Virus record (IMG/VR): IMGVR_UViG_3300020179_000100
Span: 1-33,435 of that record
Reading direction: 5' to 3' (one strand)
Length of the DNA: 33,435 bases
DNA from: a virus
This document shows, piece by piece, positions 2,317 through 16,844 of the stretch; the stretch's first letter is position 1; every line of letters starts with the position of its first letter. The translations under genes were made by a program, and so were the position numbers. Under the pieces are notes generated by a model. It saw only the letters and a list, made by a program, of their open reading frames with translations, was not told the origin of the DNA and did no database searches.

Positions 2317-4248
2317 TTATGTAGCATACCTAGAGTTATAGTAAGACCTAACAGAATGGTCTTGATCTCTTATAGGTACTTTAATAGAATTATTTGTTGA
2401 TGACTTACTAATATTAGTTGGAGCATTAACGATAGTATTTGATGGAGCTGCATTAGATGGTAACTTAGATGTTGCGTTATCTGCTGATCGTGCTGAAACT
2501 TCCGCCGCTTTTTGACGATCAGCATAAATCTGCATCTTAGCTTTATCTATTGCAATGTCTTTTGAAATTTGAGATTTACTTGCTGGTTTATAATACTTCG
2601 ATTTCATAGCTTGTGTATCAGTTACTGCGCCTTCATCTTCAGCGTTATCTGCAGATCGTGCTGAAACTTGATCAGCTTTATTTGATGCTGCAGTTATGGC
2701 TTTAGCTTGATCGCGTAAGTCTTCAATGTTTTGCAACCTCATGTATTCATCAGCACTGATCTCTTTATCATCTACGAGGTATCTTATATTGTTAGGATCA
2801 CTAGTATCCATGCGTAAGCTGTGTGTTTCTTTATTTGATGTAGCCTTTGGAGCACCTTTGTAATAGTTATCATAGATGCCTTTACCTAAACCTATAGCAC
2901 CACCGATACCCGCACCGATAGCAGTACCAACACCAGGAATAACAGAACCGATCATAGCTCCATAACCAGCATACTTAACTGCTGTACCACCAGTTCCTAC
3001 AGCTTTACCAGTCTTTTCGTATCCTGCTTCTTTAAGCTTATCACCACCCCATTGCATACCTTCACCAACTGCAGCTCCAACTGCACCTATGCCGACACCT
3101 TTCATGAGCTTACCAGCACCACCTACTTTTGATAGGTATCCAGCTCCCTTTTTAGCAGCTCCAATAGCACCTTTTCTGCCGATAAGATCGGTTGCAACAC
3201 TAGCTAGTCCTCCTAAAGATCCGCCTTGACCTGCCGACGCAGCAACGTTGTTTAAAGCAACTAACATGTCAGAGTCGGCTTTAGCCTTACGTTCATTCTC
3301 TATCTTAGTGATGGTTATCAGTTCATTGAGTGGTTCTGTAGAAGCTGTTAATGCTTTTAGTGTATCACTCTCTTCTTGCGATACATTTAGTTCATCTTGT
3401 GAGACATCTTCTTTAGCAGATTTAATTGCTCCCTTTTTCTCACCTTGTTTTGTAGGATCAATATCAATTAGCGCTTGTGCGGCTTTATCTCGGGCTTCTA
3501 TATTCTTTCGACCACCAGTAGTCCTAGCATACTCTTCTTCTGACATTAATCCTTGAGCTGTGTCTATCTTGTATTGTTCTGTTTGAAGGTTAGCTTTAGC
3601 TTCTTGTACCTTTTTACCTCTTTCAGCGTAATAGTCTTCTACAGCAGCATCTGTCTTAAACTGCTTTAGGTTTTTCATAGTAGAGTTTGCTTTAGTCATC
3701 TCATGAGCAGTTCTCAAACGCTCTTCTCGTACGTCTAGCTTTTTATCTAACCAGCTTCCACCTCCAGCTTTAACCAACCCAGTAGTATGTAATAAACCTC
3801 TGATTGATCCAAACTTCCAAGCCATGCCGCTTGGATCAAACTTATTACCAGCTCTACCTGTAAGTCTTTCTTTAAACTGTTGTCCTATCCCGCGATAGTC
3901 CTTCTCTTGCTCTTTTGCTAACTTTTCAGCTTTTTCTCCAGTAATACCTTTTCCTTTAGAAGTATCACTGATAGTTTTTGTTAACTTTTCTATGTTTTTA
4001 TTTAATCTTTTATTTTCATCTATCAAGTATTCTGTATTTTTATTAGAATCTTCTTTAAGTTTAGTTTCTTTAGAGTCTTTGATAATCGGTTCTGCAGCAA
4101 GCGTTTTCGTCTTGACACCTTCAGCTGATAGGTTATGCGAACGTAACTGTTGGATAACCTGTTTAAGAGCTCCTTCGCCCATCCTTTCAGGTTGATACTC
4201 TTTCTGAAACTCTGCTTCAGATTTAAAAATTAATCCGCTTTTTGCCAT
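2317..4248 (-). CDS. Tape-measure-like tail protein (gp29 position)
   Basis: A 643-residue protein that follows the gp26/gp51 pair, as a tape measure follows its chaperones in many tailed phages; T4 gp29 has 590 residues. The N-terminal half is charged and helical with coiled-coil stretches (about 65-95 and 150-330). The centre (about 340-480) is glycine/alanine-rich with glycine-zipper helices such as GVGIGAVGAAVGEG and GVGTAIGAGIGGAIGLGKG, a common feature of tape measures that may act in membrane passage. The C-terminus is disordered and repeats VSARSADNA twice. If mostly helical (1.5 angstrom per residue), it would span about 96 nm, near the T4 tail tube. Its ATG overlaps the upstream stop (TAATG), giving translational coupling. 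I recognise no sequence motif proving gp29; the call rests on synteny, size and composition. Confidence 0.55.
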   Translation of the reverse strand: MAKSGLIFKSEAEFQKEYQPERMGEGALKQVIQQLRSHNLSAEGVKTKTLAAEPIIKDSKETKLKEDSNKNTEYLIDENKRLNKNIEKLTKTISDTSKGKGITGEKAEKLAKEQEKDYRGIGQQFKERLTGRAGNKFDPSGMAWKFGSIRGLLHTTGLVKAGGGSWLDKKLDVREERLRTAHEMTKANSTMKNLKQFKTDAAVEDYYAERGKKVQEAKANLQTEQYKIDTAQGLMSEEEYARTTGGRKNIEARDKAAQALIDIDPTKQGEKKGAIKSAKEDVSQDELNVSQEESDTLKALTASTEPLNELITITKIENERKAKADSDMLVALNNVAASAGQGGSLGGLASVATDLIGRKGAIGAAKKGAGYLSKVGGAGKLMKGVGIGAVGAAVGEGMQWGGDKLKEAGYEKTGKAVGTGGTAVKYAGYGAMIGSVIPGVGTAIGAGIGGAIGLGKGIYDNYYKGAPKATSNKETHSLRMDTSDPNNIRYLVDDKEISADEYMRLQNIEDLRDQAKAITAASNKADQVSARSADNAEDEGAVTDTQAMKSKYYKPASKSQISKDIAIDKAKMQIYADRQKAAEVSARSADNATSKLPSNAAPSNTIVNAPTNISKSSTNNSIKVPIRDQDHSVRSYYNSRYAT

Positions 4249-4385
4249 TACCTACTCTCTAGTCTTTGTTTTTCTTCTTCTAAATACTTAATCAACATAG
4301 CAACATAGATCTCGCGTTCAAATGGGAACATCTCTTCAATCTCAGTCAACGAATACTTGTGGTATTGCATGAGAGCGAAGTTCAT
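4248..4385 (-). CDS. 51: gp51-like hub assembly protein / candidate frameshift extension of gp26
   Basis: The frame after gp26 encodes 45 residues from the ATG at 4385, including MNFALMQYHKYSLTEIEE, MFPFEREIYVAML and a charged helical end (EEEKQRLESR). The NFALMQYHKYS...PFERE pattern resembles the small protein that marine T4-like phages carry at this place, usually named gp51 (hub assembly catalyst; T4 gp51 is much longer, 249 residues). No ribosome site precedes the ATG. The frame is open upstream through LVNLSHESLSNYYK to the gp26 stop, so it can be reached by a -1 shift at 4426-4433, adding 59 residues to gp26 (296 in total). Its stop overlaps the tape-measure start. It probably acts as a chaperone that binds the tape measure; whether it is made alone or only as a fusion is open. 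Confidence 0.7.
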   Translation of the reverse strand: MNFALMQYHKYSLTEIEEMFPFEREIYVAMLIKYLEEEKQRLESR

Positions 4386-4423
4386 CTTATAATAGTTGGA
4401 CAAGCTCTCGTGACTGAGATTAA

Positions 4424-5137
4424 CTAAAAAAAACTTGCCAGGCCCTCCATAGACTTAACATGATGCTTGCTACATACTGGGCAATCATATTCTACTGTCT
4501 GCTTTAACTTAGGTACAGTTAAGAAAAAGTTTTCAATCTTCTTAAACTGTTCTTGAGTTAAGTTTTCAAGGAAGTCTAATACTTCTTGTCTTGTTTGATC
4601 TTTAGTATTAAACACCTCATCAGTGTTGTATATTGATTCTATACAATCAACTACTACATCAAATATACTGTCTATATCTCCGTCTCGTATCTTCTCTAAC
4701 TTATCTAAAGTATCTAGCGACGGGTTTTTCATCATGATCCCAACATCATCAAATAAAGGGATGTTAGTGTCATGTCCTTCTGGAAACTCTACCTTAAACT
4801 TTGTTATATCTAACTTAACGTTAGCCTTTGCCTTTTCGTCATCGCATGTATCACAAAGGAATATTAACTCTACTATCTCGCCTACAGACTTTGCTCTGAT
4901 CTGTGTAAATAAGTATTCATAGTCAAACGTAGCTAAGTTATCTATGTCTACGTCTCCGACTATGCAAGACTGTAAGACGTTCTTTAATGTGTTGATCATT
5001 ACCTTAGGGTCTTCAGACTGCTGTGCTAAGAGTAATGCTTTCTCTTCTTTGACCAAAAACGGTCTAAACTGTATCTCTCTCTTTGTAGATGGCACCGTTA
5101 CATTATATAACGGTGCCTTCATCATAGGTAGTGCCAT
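4424..5137 (-). CDS. 26: gp26-like baseplate hub protein/chaperone
   Basis: A 237-residue relative of T4 gp26 (208 residues), needed for central baseplate hub assembly. The N-terminus PMMKAPLYNVTVPSTKREIQ and FRPFLVKEEKALLLA are typical of this family. Two CxxC pairs, C95/C98 (CDTC) and C219/C222 (CPVC, followed by HH), could form a zinc ribbon. The gene ends GLASFF with codons AGT TTT TTT TAG, so a slippery run of eight T touches the stop codon. It lies one base after the gp16 stop and is followed by the gp51-like frame and the tape measure. Family assignment is good; the mode of action (assembly chaperone rather than virion component) is inferred from the lambda G-like arrangement. Confidence 0.8.
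   Translation of the reverse strand: MALPMMKAPLYNVTVPSTKREIQFRPFLVKEEKALLLAQQSEDPKVMINTLKNVLQSCIVGDVDIDNLATFDYEYLFTQIRAKSVGEIVELIFLCDTCDDEKAKANVKLDITKFKVEFPEGHDTNIPLFDDVGIMMKNPSLDTLDKLEKIRDGDIDSIFDVVVDCIESIYNTDEVFNTKDQTRQEVLDFLENLTQEQFKKIENFFLTVPKLKQTVEYDCPVCSKHHVKSMEGLASFF
4426..4433 (-). other. Candidate -1 programmed ribosomal frameshift site (T_TTT_TTT)
   Basis: In the gp26 reading frame the codons are AGT TTT TTT TAG, giving the classic slippery heptamer T_TTT_TTT with both P- and A-site tRNAs able to re-pair after slipping one base back. The stop codon directly after the heptamer would slow the ribosome. After a -1 shift the frame reads L-V-N-L-S-H-E-S and runs 59 residues through the gp51-like sequence. 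Only a weak hairpin (TCTC, six-base loop, GAGA) follows, so no strong stimulator is evident. The run of eight T could also allow polymerase slippage. Confidence 0.6.
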
Positions 5138-9584: not shown

Positions 9585-10873
9585 TGCCAGCAGATTCTGA
9601 AGTAATACGGTTCGCGGGAGACGTCTCGATCGACAAGATTGAGATCATCTCGTCTAATGGGTTTGGTCAAGACGTAACCAATCAAGTCATAGCCATAGAG
9701 ATGTACGAGGACATATTCTCTCCGTTCATATCTGGAGTACTGGCATTAAAAGACTCGTTAGACTTAGCAAACCTGTTCCCGTTTGTAGGTGAAGAGTTCG
9801 TCAACATCAAGATGCATACTCCTTCCTTCGAAGGTAAGGATAACATAATCAGCGACCAGTTCTATATCTTCAAGATGTCAAATCGTATCAAGAAGGGTGA
9901 CAGGAACCTTATCTATGAACTACACTTCATATCACGTGAAGCCATAGTTGACTTAAACAAGAAGGTCAGTAAGTGTTATCAAGGTAAGTGTTCTGACATA
10001 GCTCAATCGATAATCACAGATAAGATCAATGGCTTGGAGACTGTTAAGACTCCTATCATAGAAGAGACGCCTAACGGGGTCAAGTACATATCAAACTTTT
10101 GGTCTCCTGTAAAAGCATTGAACTATACGGCAGAGATCGCTGTTAACAGGAACGGCAACGCTTCTTATCTGTTCTTTGAAAATAAGTACGGGTTAAACTT
10201 CGTATCGCTCGAGACGTTGTATCAAGCAGAGCCCACACAATACTTCACTTATGATGCTTTCATGAGGGAGTTTACTCCAGACGGCAGGTCATTCAGGAAC
10301 ATAGAAAAAGAATACCAACGTATCATAGACATCAACATGCCAACCATATTTGACTACATAGACAGGGCAAAGAGCGGCATGTATGCTTCTAAGATGATCA
10401 ACTATGACCTAACTACCAAGAAGTATGTGGTCAAAAACTTTGATATGCTCACCGAGTTTAGTAATCAAAAACACCTAAACGAGTTTGCTGGTGCCTCTAA
10501 TAATGTCATTCGTAGGTCAAACTCAATGGTGTTTGCTATGCCAAAATACTATGGAAACTTTAATAACTTTGGTGACGTGACTAATGCTAGGTCGATCCAA
10601 AGAAGGATGTCATTGATACAACAAGCAGAGATATCAAAGGTGGAGATAGTCGTCCCAGGTAGGACAGACTACACAGTAGGCAAGAAGGTTTACTTGAACT
10701 TGAATAAGTTTAATCCTACCGATAAGGAAGACATGGATACGGCTGATAACATGTTTTCGGGTAACTATATAATAGCAGCTATAAATCATTTTGTAAATAG
10801 AGAGAAGCATGAGTGTCATATGGAGTTGATCAAAGACACGTTCATAGTTGATCTAAATAAAGGTGGAAGATGA
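9584..10873 (+). CDS. 27: gp27-like baseplate hub protein
   Basis: gp27 forms the trimeric ring of the hub that holds the gp5 spike. This protein has 429 residues (T4: 391). It begins with a short disordered stretch and strands (FAGDVSIDKIEIISSNG), then YEDIFSPFISGVLALKDS, FYIFKMSNRIKKGDRNL and HFISREAIVDLNKKVSKCY, the gp27/VgrG N-terminal hub fold. The C-terminal part VVPGRTDYTVGKKVYLNL and SGNYIIAAINHFVNRE fits the second hub barrel. It ends ATGA with the gp5 start, so hub and spike are co-translated. Assigned from pattern and from adjacency to gp5. Confidence 0.78.
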   Translation: MPADSEVIRFAGDVSIDKIEIISSNGFGQDVTNQVIAIEMYEDIFSPFISGVLALKDSLDLANLFPFVGEEFVNIKMHTPSFEGKDNIISDQFYIFKMSNRIKKGDRNLIYELHFISREAIVDLNKKVSKCYQGKCSDIAQSIITDKINGLETVKTPIIEETPNGVKYISNFWSPVKALNYTAEIAVNRNGNASYLFFENKYGLNFVSLETLYQAEPTQYFTYDAFMREFTPDGRSFRNIEKEYQRIIDINMPTIFDYIDRAKSGMYASKMINYDLTTKKYVVKNFDMLTEFSNQKHLNEFAGASNNVIRRSNSMVFAMPKYYGNFNNFGDVTNARSIQRRMSLIQQAEISKVEIVVPGRTDYTVGKKVYLNLNKFNPTDKEDMDTADNMFSGNYIIAAINHFVNREKHECHMELIKDTFIVDLNKGGR

Positions 10874-13149
10874 AGTTATACACTGGATGCGTAGAGAACA
10901 GGAACGACCCGCTCAAGCTTGGTAGATGTCAAGTTAGAGTCGTTGGTCTACATAACCATGATAAGAACCAGCTAAAGACTGAAGACTTACCATGGGCATA
11001 TCCTATGCAGCCGATAACTTCTGCTGGTATATCAGGCATAGGTCACTCTCCATTAGGTCCAGTTGAAGGAACCTGGGTCCTCATCATGTTTAGAGATGAT
11101 GACGAACAACAACCAATCATATTAGGTTCTATCGGCGGTATCCCACAAGCACAAGGTGCAATAGATCAAGATAATGATCAGATGATATTAAAAGAAGATG
11201 GTATGATCGCGCCGGCCGATCAACAATCAATCACAGATTCAAATGGAAACATAATAAGTAATGATTCTCCTGAAGATAAAATAGAAGAATTAACTGGGTT
11301 AAATCCAGCATCATCATATACATTATCTCAAGCTGGTATCGATGAGATCAAGAGAAACGATCCAGCATTATCAGATACAGAGATACAAGACTATGTAGCA
11401 ACAAATATAGCACCAGCAATCCAATCCACGGTCAAAGCTCCTATCAGTCAATCAATGTTTGATGGATTATGTGCTCTTGCATATAATACTACACCAGAAA
11501 CTGTAACTAATTCATCAATGATGGTTGATCTTAATTCTGCAAAATACTTAGATGCAGCCACTGCATTCAATGGTCTAAATCCAGATACTACACAGAAAGA
11601 CTTATTCTTAAAAGATGGTATACCAAATGTTGCTGGTGAACTATCACCAGTAGCTTCCGCTACTCCACCAGTCGACTCATCAACTACTAGTTCGGGATTA
11701 ACTAACGACGGTATAGCTATGGTCCTCGGATTTAAAGATCCAAAAGGTAAGTACCCGCTATACTTAAACGAACCAGATACCAATAAGCTTGCAAGACATG
11801 AAGACATCAAGAAGACCATAGTTCGTAAGAAGGAACTAGCGAGGGAGAAAGGTGTCATCTCTGCATTTAACGTGACATGGGACCAATCTCCCGTACCATA
11901 CAACTCATTGTACCCGTATAATCATGTGTTCATGTCCGAGTCTGGCCATGTCATGGAGTTTGACGATACACCAAACTCAGAGCGCGTACACATCTATCAT
12001 AAGTCTGGTACATACACAGAGATCGACTCTAACGGTACAGAAGTCAAGCGTATAGTAGGTGACAAGTACGAGGTGCTTGAACGAAACGGTCACCTATATG
12101 TTAAAGGCACTGCTGACGTCACCATAGATGGTAACCATAATGTCAAGATCAACAATGCATTAAATGTTGAGGTCATTGGTGACGTTAAGATGCACGTTAC
12201 TGGTAAAATGGACGTTGATGTTGCAGGAGTCTATAACTTAAAAGCAAAAGGCATTAATATCGAGACTAGCACTGATCCTATTAACATATTATCAGGCAAT
12301 AGTGTAAACGTACAATCTGCTGCAGCGCAAAACTTTAAAGCCGCAGCAACATTTAACGTTGATGCCGTACGAGTAGACATGAACAGTGGTACAGCTGGTG
12401 ATGCAACTGGTACAGGGTTAGATACACTAGAGATAGCAACTCCTGAACTACCAACGTTTTCTGAACTAGTAGTGTTAACTCGTGGAGTAGAAGCTGCAGC
12501 ACACTATGAAACACCTGAGGAAGGTGATCCATCAGAGTACATAGACAAACAAATCTCAGATGGTACATTAGACCCTGCCGACAAAGACTTTGGTACTTCT
12601 CAAGGCTCTGCTTCCGCAGCAGAAAACAACGTTGCTCCTTTACCACAGAGCTGTAACATCATCAGTTCTATGGAGAAGTTTACTCCAGACCTAATACTAT
12701 CTCCACACTTTAGCCTTGGCGGGTTAACAAAGGGTGGATCAAGGATGCCTGTGAACCAACAAGGATTAACTGCACAAGAGATCGTATGTAACCTTAAGGG
12801 TCTTGCTGAAAACTGCCTTGAGCCTATCATCAACTTATACCCAGGTATGGTGATAACTTCAGGATACAGGAGACCTGGTGATGTACCTAAGTCGTCTGCT
12901 ACATCACAACACTATTTAGGTCAAGCAGCAGACATCATCATCCCAGGGTTTAACAGAGAAAGACACTATGAAGCTATACAAGCCATCCAAAAGATCATCC
13001 CGTATGACCAATTGATATTAGAGTATTCTGGTAAGACTACTGTATGGATCCATGTGTCGTTTAAGTATACGGCAAATAGGTTGATGGCGTTTACCATGAG
13101 GGATCATGCAAAAGTTGGTGGCACAGGACAATTTACACTCATAGCATAA
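10870..13149 (+). CDS. 5: gp5-like spike with degenerate lysozyme and C-terminal M15 peptidase
   Basis: The trimeric central spike that pierces the cell envelope; 759 residues against 575 in T4. Domains in order: OB-fold at 1-95 (MKLYTGCVENRNDPLKLGRC, PLGPVEGTWV, PIILGSIGGI); a remnant of a GH24-type lysozyme at about 150-236 (LSQAGIDEI, APISQSMFDGLCALAYN, LNSAKYLDAATAFNGLN) without the catalytic lobe; a linker; a beta-helix at about 350-505 (GHVMEFDD, KSGTYTEID, then VTIDGNHNVKINNALNVEVI and similar strands); and an M15-type D-Ala-D-Ala peptidase at about 600-745 with SGYRRP at 664-669, H681 and D688 in SQHYLGQAAD, and H728 in WIHVSF as likely zinc ligands. Peptidoglycan cutting has thus probably moved from glycan to peptide bonds. 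The next gene overlaps the stop. Confidence 0.85.
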   Translation: MKLYTGCVENRNDPLKLGRCQVRVVGLHNHDKNQLKTEDLPWAYPMQPITSAGISGIGHSPLGPVEGTWVLIMFRDDDEQQPIILGSIGGIPQAQGAIDQDNDQMILKEDGMIAPADQQSITDSNGNIISNDSPEDKIEELTGLNPASSYTLSQAGIDEIKRNDPALSDTEIQDYVATNIAPAIQSTVKAPISQSMFDGLCALAYNTTPETVTNSSMMVDLNSAKYLDAATAFNGLNPDTTQKDLFLKDGIPNVAGELSPVASATPPVDSSTTSSGLTNDGIAMVLGFKDPKGKYPLYLNEPDTNKLARHEDIKKTIVRKKELAREKGVISAFNVTWDQSPVPYNSLYPYNHVFMSESGHVMEFDDTPNSERVHIYHKSGTYTEIDSNGTEVKRIVGDKYEVLERNGHLYVKGTADVTIDGNHNVKINNALNVEVIGDVKMHVTGKMDVDVAGVYNLKAKGINIETSTDPINILSGNSVNVQSAAAQNFKAAATFNVDAVRVDMNSGTAGDATGTGLDTLEIATPELPTFSELVVLTRGVEAAAHYETPEEGDPSEYIDKQISDGTLDPADKDFGTSQGSASAAENNVAPLPQSCNIISSMEKFTPDLILSPHFSLGGLTKGGSRMPVNQQGLTAQEIVCNLKGLAENCLEPIINLYPGMVITSGYRRPGDVPKSSATSQHYLGQAADIIIPGFNRERHYEAIQAIQKIIPYDQLILEYSGKTTVWIHVSFKYTANRLMAFTMRDHAKVGGTGQFTLIA

Positions 13150-14016: not shown

Positions 14017-14508
14017 ATGCCTACTCAGCAAATAGATTTTAGTACAATCCAAAATATATATCTAAATGGTAATGAAATTTTTGAATTACAATTAGATAAT
14101 CAAGTATTATGGAAAAAGTATCTATTTAATGGTACGACAACTTTTACCACTTCATATAATACATCAGTATCAAATACGACTAGTGCTATAACAAATTATG
14201 CTACAAATTATACAACATCAGTTACAACTTCTAATCTGACAGCTTATTCACAAACTACGTCTAATACTACATCGATCGCTACTATTGTTGGGCAGGACAA
14301 AAAACTCGGACCAATATATGCAAATACTGCTTATTTGACGTATTTTATTACTTCATACAATGAAACTACTTCATATACTACTTCATGGTCTACAAGTAAC
14401 ACAACTAGTAACACGACTTCATATTTGACAAATTATCTAGCTTCTACTTCTAACCCAACAAGTTTAAATTATAGTACGTATTTGATAACATATATTGGTA
14501 AAGTTTAA
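14017..14508 (+). CDS. Thr/Ser/Asn-rich low-complexity surface protein
   Basis: A 163-residue protein. The first 35 residues are ordinary (IYLNGNEIFELQLDNQVLWK), a small beta segment of a type seen at the start of some marine phage structural proteins. The rest is dominated by Thr, Ser, Asn and Tyr in short irregular repeats (TTSYTTSWSTSNTTSNTTSY and similar), interrupted once by VGQDKKLGPIYANTAYL. It contains many hydroxyl and NxS/T sites and few charges. It directly precedes, and overlaps by one base, a glycosyltransferase-like gene. It may be an adhesin or a carrier for glycan; neither is proven. Confidence 0.6.
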   Translation: MPTQQIDFSTIQNIYLNGNEIFELQLDNQVLWKKYLFNGTTTFTTSYNTSVSNTTSAITNYATNYTTSVTTSNLTAYSQTTSNTTSIATIVGQDKKLGPIYANTAYLTYFITSYNETTSYTTSWSTSNTTSNTTSYLTNYLASTSNPTSLNYSTYLITYIGKV

Positions 14509-15392
14509 TGGATACAATTAACAGTAGATGGGAAGATGAATCACGGATAGGTAATAATGTACCGCTTTATGATAAAGAAATCTTTTTAGAGATTGAAAAA
14601 TATATTATAAAAACATGTGCTAAGTACGACTTAACCTGTAAGTATAATGTTGGCCCATTAATAGGAGGGGTTCCTCCTATCGAAGATAATACAATCATAG
14701 TTAATCCGTTAGTTAATGCTATAGCATATCATGATGTTATGGGTGGTATCCTGATAAGTACTAGAAACGCTGAACTAAACTGCAGAAATGTTGACACAAT
14801 ATTAGCTAATCATATGACAGATGATATATCTGAAATTGTTATTTCTAAATTAAAAGACAAGTATGTATTAAATAGTAGTGATAAACTATATGATAAAGTT
14901 GCATTTATGCCGGGATCTAACTTATTTCATACAGTTAATTGGGAAAAACTAAATGAAGCTATGATTGATAATCCATCTGCTATGATTAAACTACACCCAG
15001 TTATAACTGAAAAGTCTGCTAAGTCAATTAAGAATAAGTGGCCTGAAAGAGTTATAGATGAAAAAACTAGTGGACTACAGCTACTTAATGCTTCATCTTT
15101 AATTTGGACTTCTTATAATAGTGAATTTGGTTTAATAGCTAGTTTAAAGAAAATACCATTTTCAAATTTAAGTAAATGGAATGATGTATTTTCAATGGTA
15201 TATGCACCAATATATAGAAATTTAAAATATAAAGATTTAGAGCATAATAAAGATGTAGTTTCAAAAGTAATTTCAAGTAAGAGAAGTGGATACATATTTC
15301 CTTGGCAAGATGATTGGAAACAGCGAGTTGAAATATATTTTGAATCTATACATAAGTTTAATACTGGAATGGAATATCCATATGCCGAGTAA
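14508..15392 (+). CDS. Glycosyltransferase-like (GT-B / capsule-transferase type) protein
   Basis: A 294-residue soluble protein whose C-terminal half resembles the donor-binding domain of capsule or CDP-glycerol-type transferases: KVAFMPGS opens a Rossmann-like strand, IKLHP gives the K-x-H-P motif, and LLNASSLIWTSYNSEFGLIA matches the signature in which a Ser-rich loop and an acidic residue bind the sugar nucleotide. The N-terminal half is less clear, though IIVNPLVNAIAYHDVMGG may be part of the acceptor domain. The gene overlaps its neighbours at both ends and is AT-rich. It may glycosylate the Thr/Ser-rich protein beside it or modify a host surface polymer. The fold call is moderate; substrate unknown. 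Confidence 0.5.
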   Translation: MDTINSRWEDESRIGNNVPLYDKEIFLEIEKYIIKTCAKYDLTCKYNVGPLIGGVPPIEDNTIIVNPLVNAIAYHDVMGGILISTRNAELNCRNVDTILANHMTDDISEIVISKLKDKYVLNSSDKLYDKVAFMPGSNLFHTVNWEKLNEAMIDNPSAMIKLHPVITEKSAKSIKNKWPERVIDEKTSGLQLLNASSLIWTSYNSEFGLIASLKKIPFSNLSKWNDVFSMVYAPIYRNLKYKDLEHNKDVVSKVISSKRSGYIFPWQDDWKQRVEIYFESIHKFNTGMEYPYAE

Positions 15393-16191
15393 AGTAATAT
15401 CACAACAATTAAAAATATATTCTGAAAATATAGATCATCATTTAGCCATCAATAGTATACCAAATTGTGGGCTTGTTACTTTATTAGATGATGCTGATAT
15501 TATCTTAGATTCAACAAATAAATTAGAATTTAAAAATATAGATATAAATGCATATTTTTCTAATAAAAGGACTAATATTAAAAGCATGCCGGCTTATGTA
15601 AAATATATTGATCAACAAAGTATGTTATATCATATTAATAATAAGCAAGTATTGTATTCAAAGATCTCCGTGGTTCCATTCCATGAATTTATTAATAATA
15701 CTTCATTTAAGTATTTTGTTGATATGTATAAAGATCAAACATTTGACTTAGTTAAGCTTGATAAAGATGATGAAACTGTTTTAACAACTGATACGCTAGA
15801 AAATATATTAATCATTCATGATAATTTATTAGAAACAACATTGATAGAAGATGTAATGTTTAGTTCAAACTCAAAATATATGGTCAGAAAAATAAAAAAT
15901 CCTCAAACAAAATATGTTTATGGAGCTATTTCTTTTGATGGTACATCACTCCATATTGCTACTAATGTTAGGATGCCTAATCAAATTTTATCATTGGTTA
16001 AATTATTATTTGCGGCTTGTGCCGGGTTTTTTCAAATAGAATACTTTGATAATGTTAATAAGTATGAAATTTATAGTTTTAAATTTTCAATGGATCTAGA
16101 TATTTTATCAGATAATATAATTAATATACCTCAAGTGCAAAAAGCTTTTGAAGAAATTTCAAATCAATATGAATTTGGAATGGATGTATGA
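15382..16191 (+). CDS. Unknown protein of the AT-rich cassette
   Basis: A 269-residue protein from the ATG at 15382, preceded by GGAATGGAA. Starts farther upstream lie deep in the previous gene and are unlikely; even so the two genes overlap by 11 bases. It has an acidic N-terminal half with mixed strands and helices, an YVYGAISFDGTSLHIATN strand region, and a hydrophobic segment LSLVKLLFAACAGFFQIEYF near the C-terminus that looks like a buried helix rather than a membrane anchor. No motif recognised. GC is about 27% in a sampled line, far below the tail genes. It is coupled to the PP-loop gene (ATGA), suggesting the two act together. Confidence 0.6.
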   Translation: MPSKVISQQLKIYSENIDHHLAINSIPNCGLVTLLDDADIILDSTNKLEFKNIDINAYFSNKRTNIKSMPAYVKYIDQQSMLYHINNKQVLYSKISVVPFHEFINNTSFKYFVDMYKDQTFDLVKLDKDDETVLTTDTLENILIIHDNLLETTLIEDVMFSSNSKYMVRKIKNPQTKYVYGAISFDGTSLHIATNVRMPNQILSLVKLLFAACAGFFQIEYFDNVNKYEIYSFKFSMDLDILSDNIINIPQVQKAFEEISNQYEFGMDV

Positions 16192-16844
16192 GTAAATTTC
16201 TATTGTCTCTTTCAGGTGGAAAAGATAGTTTAGCTGCTTATCTTAAATTAAAAGAAACTTTTGGTTCTAGTTGTATTAAAACGTTTACCATTAAATCAAA
16301 CAATGATGTGGTCTGGAATACAGATCTAGATTTAATAGATGAAATGTATGAAAATAATATAATACTAGATTCTGGCGATAAAGTCTATTATGATGCATTT
16401 GGCCAAATGCTAAATGATCATGATATTAATCCTAATGAATATTATTTTTCATCAGGAGAATTAGATTCTATAAATGAAACAGTAGACTATTATCCTATAA
16501 TAAGTAAGTTTGGGTTTAAAGGATTTGTTACTCCATTCTATGGTAAACCTAAACAACTTGTATTTGATATCTTGCAAAAATATAATTGCGAGTTTATTAT
16601 AACTCAAGCCTTTGTAACACCTACAGCTAATATTGATGAAGTTTATTCTAATATTGGTCGTATAGTAACAGCCGAGCAGCTTAAAAACATGTATCTGGAT
16701 AAGAATTTTAATTATTTTTTTGCATATCAGACTTTTGCTATTAAATGTGATTCAATAATAACATTAAGCCAAAACAAAATAACAGGTTTATATGAATCTA
16801 TTAATATGTCTAAAGATAAAAATACATCAATATTTATTATGTAA
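16188..16844 (+). CDS. PP-loop ATP pyrophosphatase (Dph6/ATPase alpha-hydrolase type)
   Basis: A 218-residue protein opening with FLLSLSGGKDSLAAYLKLKE, the exact SGGKDS PP-loop of N-type ATP pyrophosphatases, which adenylate a carbonyl or hydroxyl group and release pyrophosphate. The later stretch FKGFVTPFYGKPKQLVFDIL, followed by CEFIITQAF, resembles diphthamide-ammonia ligase (Dph6) relatives more than tRNA thiolation or QueC enzymes, and no cysteine motif of thiolases is seen. The substrate cannot be told: amidation of a sugar, protein or nucleotide is possible. It closes the AT-rich cassette and overlaps the previous gene by four bases. Such an enzyme is out of place in a phage tail operon. 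Confidence 0.7.
   Translation: MSKFLLSLSGGKDSLAAYLKLKETFGSSCIKTFTIKSNNDVVWNTDLDLIDEMYENNIILDSGDKVYYDAFGQMLNDHDINPNEYYFSSGELDSINETVDYYPIISKFGFKGFVTPFYGKPKQLVFDILQKYNCEFIITQAFVTPTANIDEVYSNIGRIVTAEQLKNMYLDKNFNYFFAYQTFAIKCDSIITLSQNKITGLYESINMSKDKNTSIFIM

Follow-up and report, generated by a model that had tools for sequence, protein, structure and literature searches.

Gene 26 and its −1 frame as a probable tail-assembly-chaperone cassette in T4-like phages

Gene 26 and the small open reading frame (ORF) behind it, often annotated as 'gp51', meet at a single junction in a marine T4-like virus, IMG/VR virus record IMGVR_UViG_3300020179_000100, whose 33,435 bases are called the window below. All features of the junction lie on the minus strand. 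Gene 26 occupies positions 4424..5137, starts at 5137, encodes 237 amino acids (aa) and ends on a TAG stop codon at 4426-4424. Its 3′ end reads GGCAAG TTTTTTTT AG, with AGT TTT TTT TAG as the final codons. The original prediction had placed a slippery heptamer against this stop, followed by a −1 frame open for 59 residues whose TAA overlaps the next ATG, and both statements were confirmed: the heptamer T_TTT_TTT (U_UUU_UUU in RNA) is at 4433-4427, and the −1 frame extension (4248..4427) comprises 59 codons and a TAA at 4250-4248 that shares a TAATG (4250-4246) with the ATG (4248-4246) of a 643-aa ORF at 2317..4248. The predicted fusion of the two frames is 237 + 59 = 296 aa long. Upstream, a GGAGG resembling a Shine-Dalgarno (SD) sequence lies at 4444..4448, inside ATG GAG GGC (Met-Glu-Gly) and 10 nucleotides (nt) 5′ of the heptamer. 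The tract of eight T (4433-4426) extends into the stop by one base. No other T run of at least eight exists on either strand of the window, and one T7 is the only other run of at least seven. The window has 99 stop-to-stop frames with a length of 60 codons or more, and gene 26 alone carries an in-frame U_UUU_UUN no more than four codons from its stop; an open −1 frame by itself is common, with at least 59 open −1 codons following 22 of the same 99 frames.

Judged from sequence and its conservation, gene 26 together with the −1 frame is very probably a tail-assembly-chaperone (TAC) cassette of the lambda G/GT type, in which −1 slippage would give a longer form beside the short one. Most ribosomes would halt at the TAG and release the 237-aa short form (TAC-N), and a minority would slip back one base at U_UUU_UUU to make a 296-aa long form (TAC-NC) carrying a 59-aa C-terminal domain (TAC-C). 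The occurrence and rate of this slippage are predictions, and it would be helped by pairing of 16S rRNA with the GGAGG 10 nt upstream. By analogy with lambda, both forms would coat the tape-measure protein, probably encoded by the ORF that follows, and the long form would recruit the tail-tube protein through its additional domain.

The gene 26 product matches the Pfam family T4_baseplate (PF12322, E = 4.8e-61, 206.7 bits against a curated cut-off of 24.5) and phrog_150 of PHROG (E = 7.1e-66). For the extension, PHROG gave phrog_634, 'baseplate hub assembly catalyst' (E = 5.9e-25), and, with E = 8.5e-6, the C-terminal end of phrog_150, which is the family of gp26. An NCBIfam scan returned nothing over a family cut-off. 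An AlphaFold2 model of gp26 reached a mean predicted local distance difference test score (pLDDT) of 87.2, and residues 1-85 of the model matched the HK97 tail chaperone 2ob9 with Z = 7.7 (root-mean-square deviation 4.1, 83 aligned), followed by 3fgx (Z = 7.4), YqbN 3klu (7.2) and 5ir0 (5.4), below which the first row stood at Z = 2.6. The modelled N-terminal domain resembles the HK97 tail chaperone, at a Z value under 8 that is not proof alone. Searched against predicted viral structures, the model retrieved mainly baseplate-hub or gp26, baseplate and uncharacterised phage proteins among the named top-50 matches, and a sequence search of the PDB with the gp26 profile found nothing at E < 0.07.

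The layout was then compared across 156 loci: 38 of 40 viral-contig relatives from a first search (L031 and L032 stop short of the end of gene 26), 79 of the best 80 of 596 from a second, profile-based set (L064 is the same contig as L002), all 18 Ackermannviridae-type contigs, and 21 of 22 named phage regions (L063 was handled apart); a few named phages may reappear as contigs. Of the 156 loci, 132 have U_UUU_UUN close to where gene 26 ends. In 131 it takes the form U_UUU_UU[U/C/G] and lies 0-3 codons before the stop, and in L098, counted among the 132, it sits 8 codons 5′ of the stop. A profile built from eight of 99 clusters placed the extension in the −1 frame in 131 of the 132 heptamer-bearing loci, and the T run and open −1 frame are thus kept together in the junction comparison that had been proposed as a test. 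No heptamer was found in the remaining 24 loci, namely the 18 Ackermannviridae-type contigs and the phages T2, AB-Navy97, 0507-KN2-1, barely, JA15 and K474.

Clustering of 131 loci at 85% ungapped nucleotide identity left 99 representatives. In 95 of them the stop follows the heptamer directly or after one codon. In all 99 the first slip codon is TTT, which is used for 69% of the other Phe codons of the same genes, and in all 99 the base before it is T; as an internal control, U_UUU_UU was found at only 5 of 99 Phe-Phe pairs located elsewhere in these proteins. The records of ACG-2014d, ACG-2014b, Syn10 and S-WAM1 (L057, L061, L062 and L042) leave the extension unannotated despite an open −1 frame. 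A tandem slippery heptamer is absent from the Ackermannviridae-type loci L144-L161, L050, L051 and L060; the chaperone extension is in the −1 frame in the Ackermannviridae-type contigs (profile match in 15 of 18), and the stop context is either TAATG (JA15, L159-L161) or TAATTTTTG, with ATT in place of ATG.

Codon choice upstream of the slip site points to a second element. In 90 of the 99 representatives, a stretch of at least 4 nt that matches the SD consensus ends 8-10 nt upstream of the heptamer, compared with 66 of 1663 control windows within those genes. This SD-like element is encoded by a conserved Glu-Gly, whose Glu codon is GAG in 66 of 81 cases, against 12 of 61 at other Glu-Gly sites and 626 of 2185 among all other Glu codons of these genes. 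The gene-26-only count of 12 of 61 replaced a first codon control (GAG at 112 of 570 Glu-Gly sites) that had been drawn from all six stop-to-stop frames of at least 100 codons, coding or not. Predicted pairing with 16S rRNA averaged about −7.3 kcal/mol, versus −5.3 kcal/mol in synonymous recodings (98 sequences). We propose that this codon-selected element acts as a 5′ frameshift stimulator. Its spacing of 8-10 nt is close to the 9-14 nt that a passage of PMC5009743 gives for stimulators of −1 frameshifting, and the element was counted in favour of the frameshift.

A signal of RNA structure lies on the other side of the heptamer. The 55 nt 3′ of it had a mean z of −1.54 to −1.85 relative to synonymous recodings, compared with −0.20 to −0.50 elsewhere in the extension (95 sequences). 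Against dinucleotide shuffles (98 sequences), the post-heptamer windows averaged about −1.2, most other offsets ranged from −0.7 to +0.3, and a second dip reached −0.96 at +216. In the UUUUUUC (cyanophage-type) group of 65 sequences, runs of at least 6 pairs were found in 16 against 4.5 expected, and runs of at least 8 pairs in 12, where the expectation comes from arms swapped between sequences and the figures are the best of 26 registers, with two groups scanned. None of the 32 sequences of the UUUUUUU group, which includes the window, had such runs in the best register. At register 54, of longer range, both groups had an excess of 6-pair runs (12 vs 6.6 and 7 vs 3.6 expected), and RNAalifold returned no common structure in either group. 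Sequence comparison gives a signal of a 3′ hairpin for the cyanophage-type group, one that is not established for the clade of the window.

The relation of the cassette to genes 26 and 51 of T4 is indicated by profile alignment. The short form belongs to PF12322, as T4 gp26 does. With hhalign, the −1 fusion (92 sequences) aligned with T2/T4-type gp51 (8 sequences) over 230 columns at a pairwise E = 2.3e-18, and the alignment passes the junction without a gap; the corresponding pairwise values were 6.3e-10 for gp26 alone and 7.7e-7 for the extension alone. T2 has two PF12322 genes, gp26 and a second (CDS0004, E = 1.9e-56) taken as gp51 by its size and place, and one such gene each was found in S-PM2, HTVC008M, ACG-2014d and S-SCSM1, the four heptamer-bearing phages searched. 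Because the fusion aligns with gp51 across the junction, the 'gp51' of the window is best read as the C-terminal part of a frameshifted chaperone, and the same alignment, together with the two genes of T2, indicates that T4-type gp51 is the long form carried as a gene of its own. The two T2 genes are divergently oriented and no heptamer follows gp26, unlike the arrangement in the window, whose protein needs the −1 shift and whose junction lacks an uninterrupted two-domain ORF of the gp51 type. The original prediction, that a gp51-like tail is joined to gp26 as a G/GT-type pair, is therefore supported by homology of the fusion with gp51 and needs amending in its terms: the tail is no gp51 gene, since T2/T4-type gp51 has 249 aa and both domains, and T2 has two paralogues. 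A model of T4-type gp51 (pLDDT 82.9) gave no fold match with Z of at least 5; 2ob9 appeared at rank 4 with Z = 3.7. In Vibrio phage TDDLMA (L063), two PF12322 genes are adjacent (1311-1961 and 1964-2653), and the second is fused in frame with the extension, which amounts to the two-gene arrangement of T2/T4 placed in tandem; no relatives of this in-frame fusion were found in viral contigs.

Alternatively, the small ORF might be an independent gene that encodes a free 'gp51' hub catalyst; its translation would depend on coupling or reinitiation past the stop of gene 26, and the T run would be incidental. Many database records annotate it separately, and an ATG is present within the first nine extension codons of 42 of the 99 representatives, and reinitiation is therefore possible in those clades, as it is in nt-1 and RHph_Y68, where the heptamer is accompanied by an ATG overlapping the stop. 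Dickeya JA15 and Vibrio K474, both distant relatives, lack the heptamer and carry TAATG; this combination of a missing slippery run and an ATG at the stop, named beforehand as the pattern that would speak against the frameshift, does occur there. In the other 57 of the 99 representatives, none of the first nine codons is ATG, in keeping with the expectation that no independent start is conserved, and in 34 none is ATG, GTG or TTG. In the window, read here from locus L002, which is identical at the junction, the first ATG of the −1 frame is codon 15 and the sole earlier GTG or TTG is a TTG at codon 9, both within a conserved stretch. The first codons of the extension are, by their substitution pattern, under coding constraint in the −1 frame: where the heptamer abuts the stop, a clade of 49 loci with 30 distinct sequences, of which 26 lack an ATG in this region, the first 14 −1-frame codons carry 355, 290 and 1051 substitutions at positions 1, 2 and 3, and among the first nine codons a His (77/94) and a Leu (84/94) are conserved. 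Constraint of this kind upstream of any ATG speaks against a separate start, as do the distance of about 24-25 nt between the SD-like element and the commonest early ATG, which is far for initiation, and the T2/T4-type gp51, a fusion across the same junction. An independent start in the window is disfavoured by the lack of an ATG before codon 15 and the upstream constraint in relatives, and the independent gene as a whole is judged very improbable.

Two further explanations keep the frames joined and dispense with ribosomal slippage. Transcriptional slippage on the T8 tract, whose length approaches that needed for bacterial RNA polymerase to slip, is disfavoured because 66 of the 99 representatives have only TTTTTTC, a T6 tract; codon phase and the spacing of the SD-like element are also conserved, which fits slippage on the ribosome, and the transcriptional route is considered slightly less probable still than an independent gene. 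Homopolymers are error-prone, and a sequencing or assembly indel could have split what is really one ORF, but the same out-of-frame layout is shared by 131 loci from both metagenome contigs and isolated phages, for which reason an error is barely credible. Ribosomal −1 slippage is the preferred account of how the frames are joined.

Besides the early ATGs, several observations weigh against a frameshifted chaperone pair, or soften the case for it. Ratios from the survey overstate independence because the sequences share ancestry. The sole exception in frame among the heptamer-bearing loci is S-SCSM1, which has the heptamer and the extension in +1, an arrangement that reflects a genuine loss of the fusion or else an error in the sequence; compared by eye with L110, the +1 frame of S-SCSM1 (L043 2990-3030) comes about through an 11-nt insertion. 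In the window itself, the RNA downstream of the heptamer shows no unusual degree of structure (z −1.05 to −1.70), and a Foldseek search of the gp26 model against the PDB gave a best E of 1.7, with all E-values above 1. The rule that a heptamer goes with a single PF12322 gene is incomplete, since 0507-KN2-1 (Ackermannviridae) and Vibrio K474 have one such gene and no heptamer. The tape-measure candidate adds further such points: the 643-aa ORF had no significant match in PHROG or Pfam, nine of ten equivalents in relatives lacked a tape-measure match (the exception is L073), the equivalent in L091 matches an endolysin family, and the records of S-SCSM1 and ACG-2014b label theirs lysozyme or endolysin.

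A long ORF nevertheless starts within 20 nt of the extension stop in 78 of 94 relatives, and the equivalents in HTVC008M and L073 do match tape-measure families. BLASTP of the candidate of the window against that of HTVC008M gave no significant match. By its position and size, the 643-aa ORF is probably the tape-measure protein.

Frameshifted chaperone pairs are an established theme in long-tailed phages. In lambda, a siphophage, the G/GT slip occurs at GGGAAAG, a heptamer different from the U_UUU_UUU of the window. The 2022 abstract of Vladimirov, Gautam and Davidson is said to describe frameshifting as conserved in several T4-like groups, with T4 having separate genes 26 and 51. A passage of PMC5009743 calls G-T frameshifting widely conserved in long-tailed phages 'except T4', and the relevant part of PMC3004832 lists T4 gp26 and gp51 among the hub assembly chaperones. 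As summarized in part of PMC10274946, some T4-like phages have one short and one longer fusion gene and no frameshifting (Vladimirov, Gautam & Davidson 2022), and a passage of PMC12846349 attributes to the same work (Vladimirov et al. 2022, Virology 566:9-15) polyT frameshift signals in the TAC-N genes of T4-like phages, as found here. The proposed link of hub genes 26 and 51 to the G/GT scheme is supported on these accounts, and its novelty is not: since the scheme has already been published for T4-like phages, at least as those passages relate it, the window offers a clear new example and no new kind of system, and the interpretation appears well supported by sequence and largely known.

The putative stimulators may be the newer part. 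A −1 frameshift of the E. coli dnaX type has an SD-like element about 10 nt before its heptamer, according to a passage of PMC5009743, as is the case here, and part of the cyanophage-type group also shows a signal of 3′ hairpins. The dnaX type differs in two respects, namely the stop directly or one codon past the heptamer in nearly all representatives and the absence of a conserved hairpin from the findings in the group of the window. A search of titles and abstract openings, to which the full text of Vladimirov 2022 did not belong, found no description of either stimulator, SD-like or hairpin, at this gene, and the stimulator architecture with its trade-off between clades may be new. At about an even chance of being right, the chaperone genes of marine and cyanophage T4-like phages would form a tunable three-part cassette of SD-like element, U_UUU_UUN and 3′ hairpin, whose elements are traded between clades: UUUUUUC phages would use a hairpin, and the clade of the window a slipperier U8 and GGAGG with no conserved hairpin. 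The T4 branch would have swapped the cassette for a second, permanently fused gene, and TDDLMA has a tandem short-plus-fused pair.

Other genes of the window were noted in passing. A small-terminase-like gene (5570-5139, minus strand, phrog_445) lies beside gene 26, and the tube protein is encoded at 6787-6095. At 10870-13149, a gp5-like hub protein combines a Gp5 OB fold and a phage-lysozyme match (178-235) in one chain, and has a weak Peptidase_M15 match (660-704) under the cut-off. Three ORFs at 14508-16844 lie amid tail genes; for the first, the matching families have no known function, and the third has an N-terminal SGGKDS motif, which we take to be ATP-pyrophosphatase-like, and weak matches only, to PAPS reductases.

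The 296-aa fusion and its slip site are concrete targets for testing, and if the stimulators are real, the ratio of short to long form would be experimentally adjustable. The results indicate that the 'hub subunit' and 'hub assembly catalyst', often annotated as two proteins in marine T4-like phages, are one chaperone made in two lengths; by implication, records that list 'gp51' separately or omit it should be corrected.

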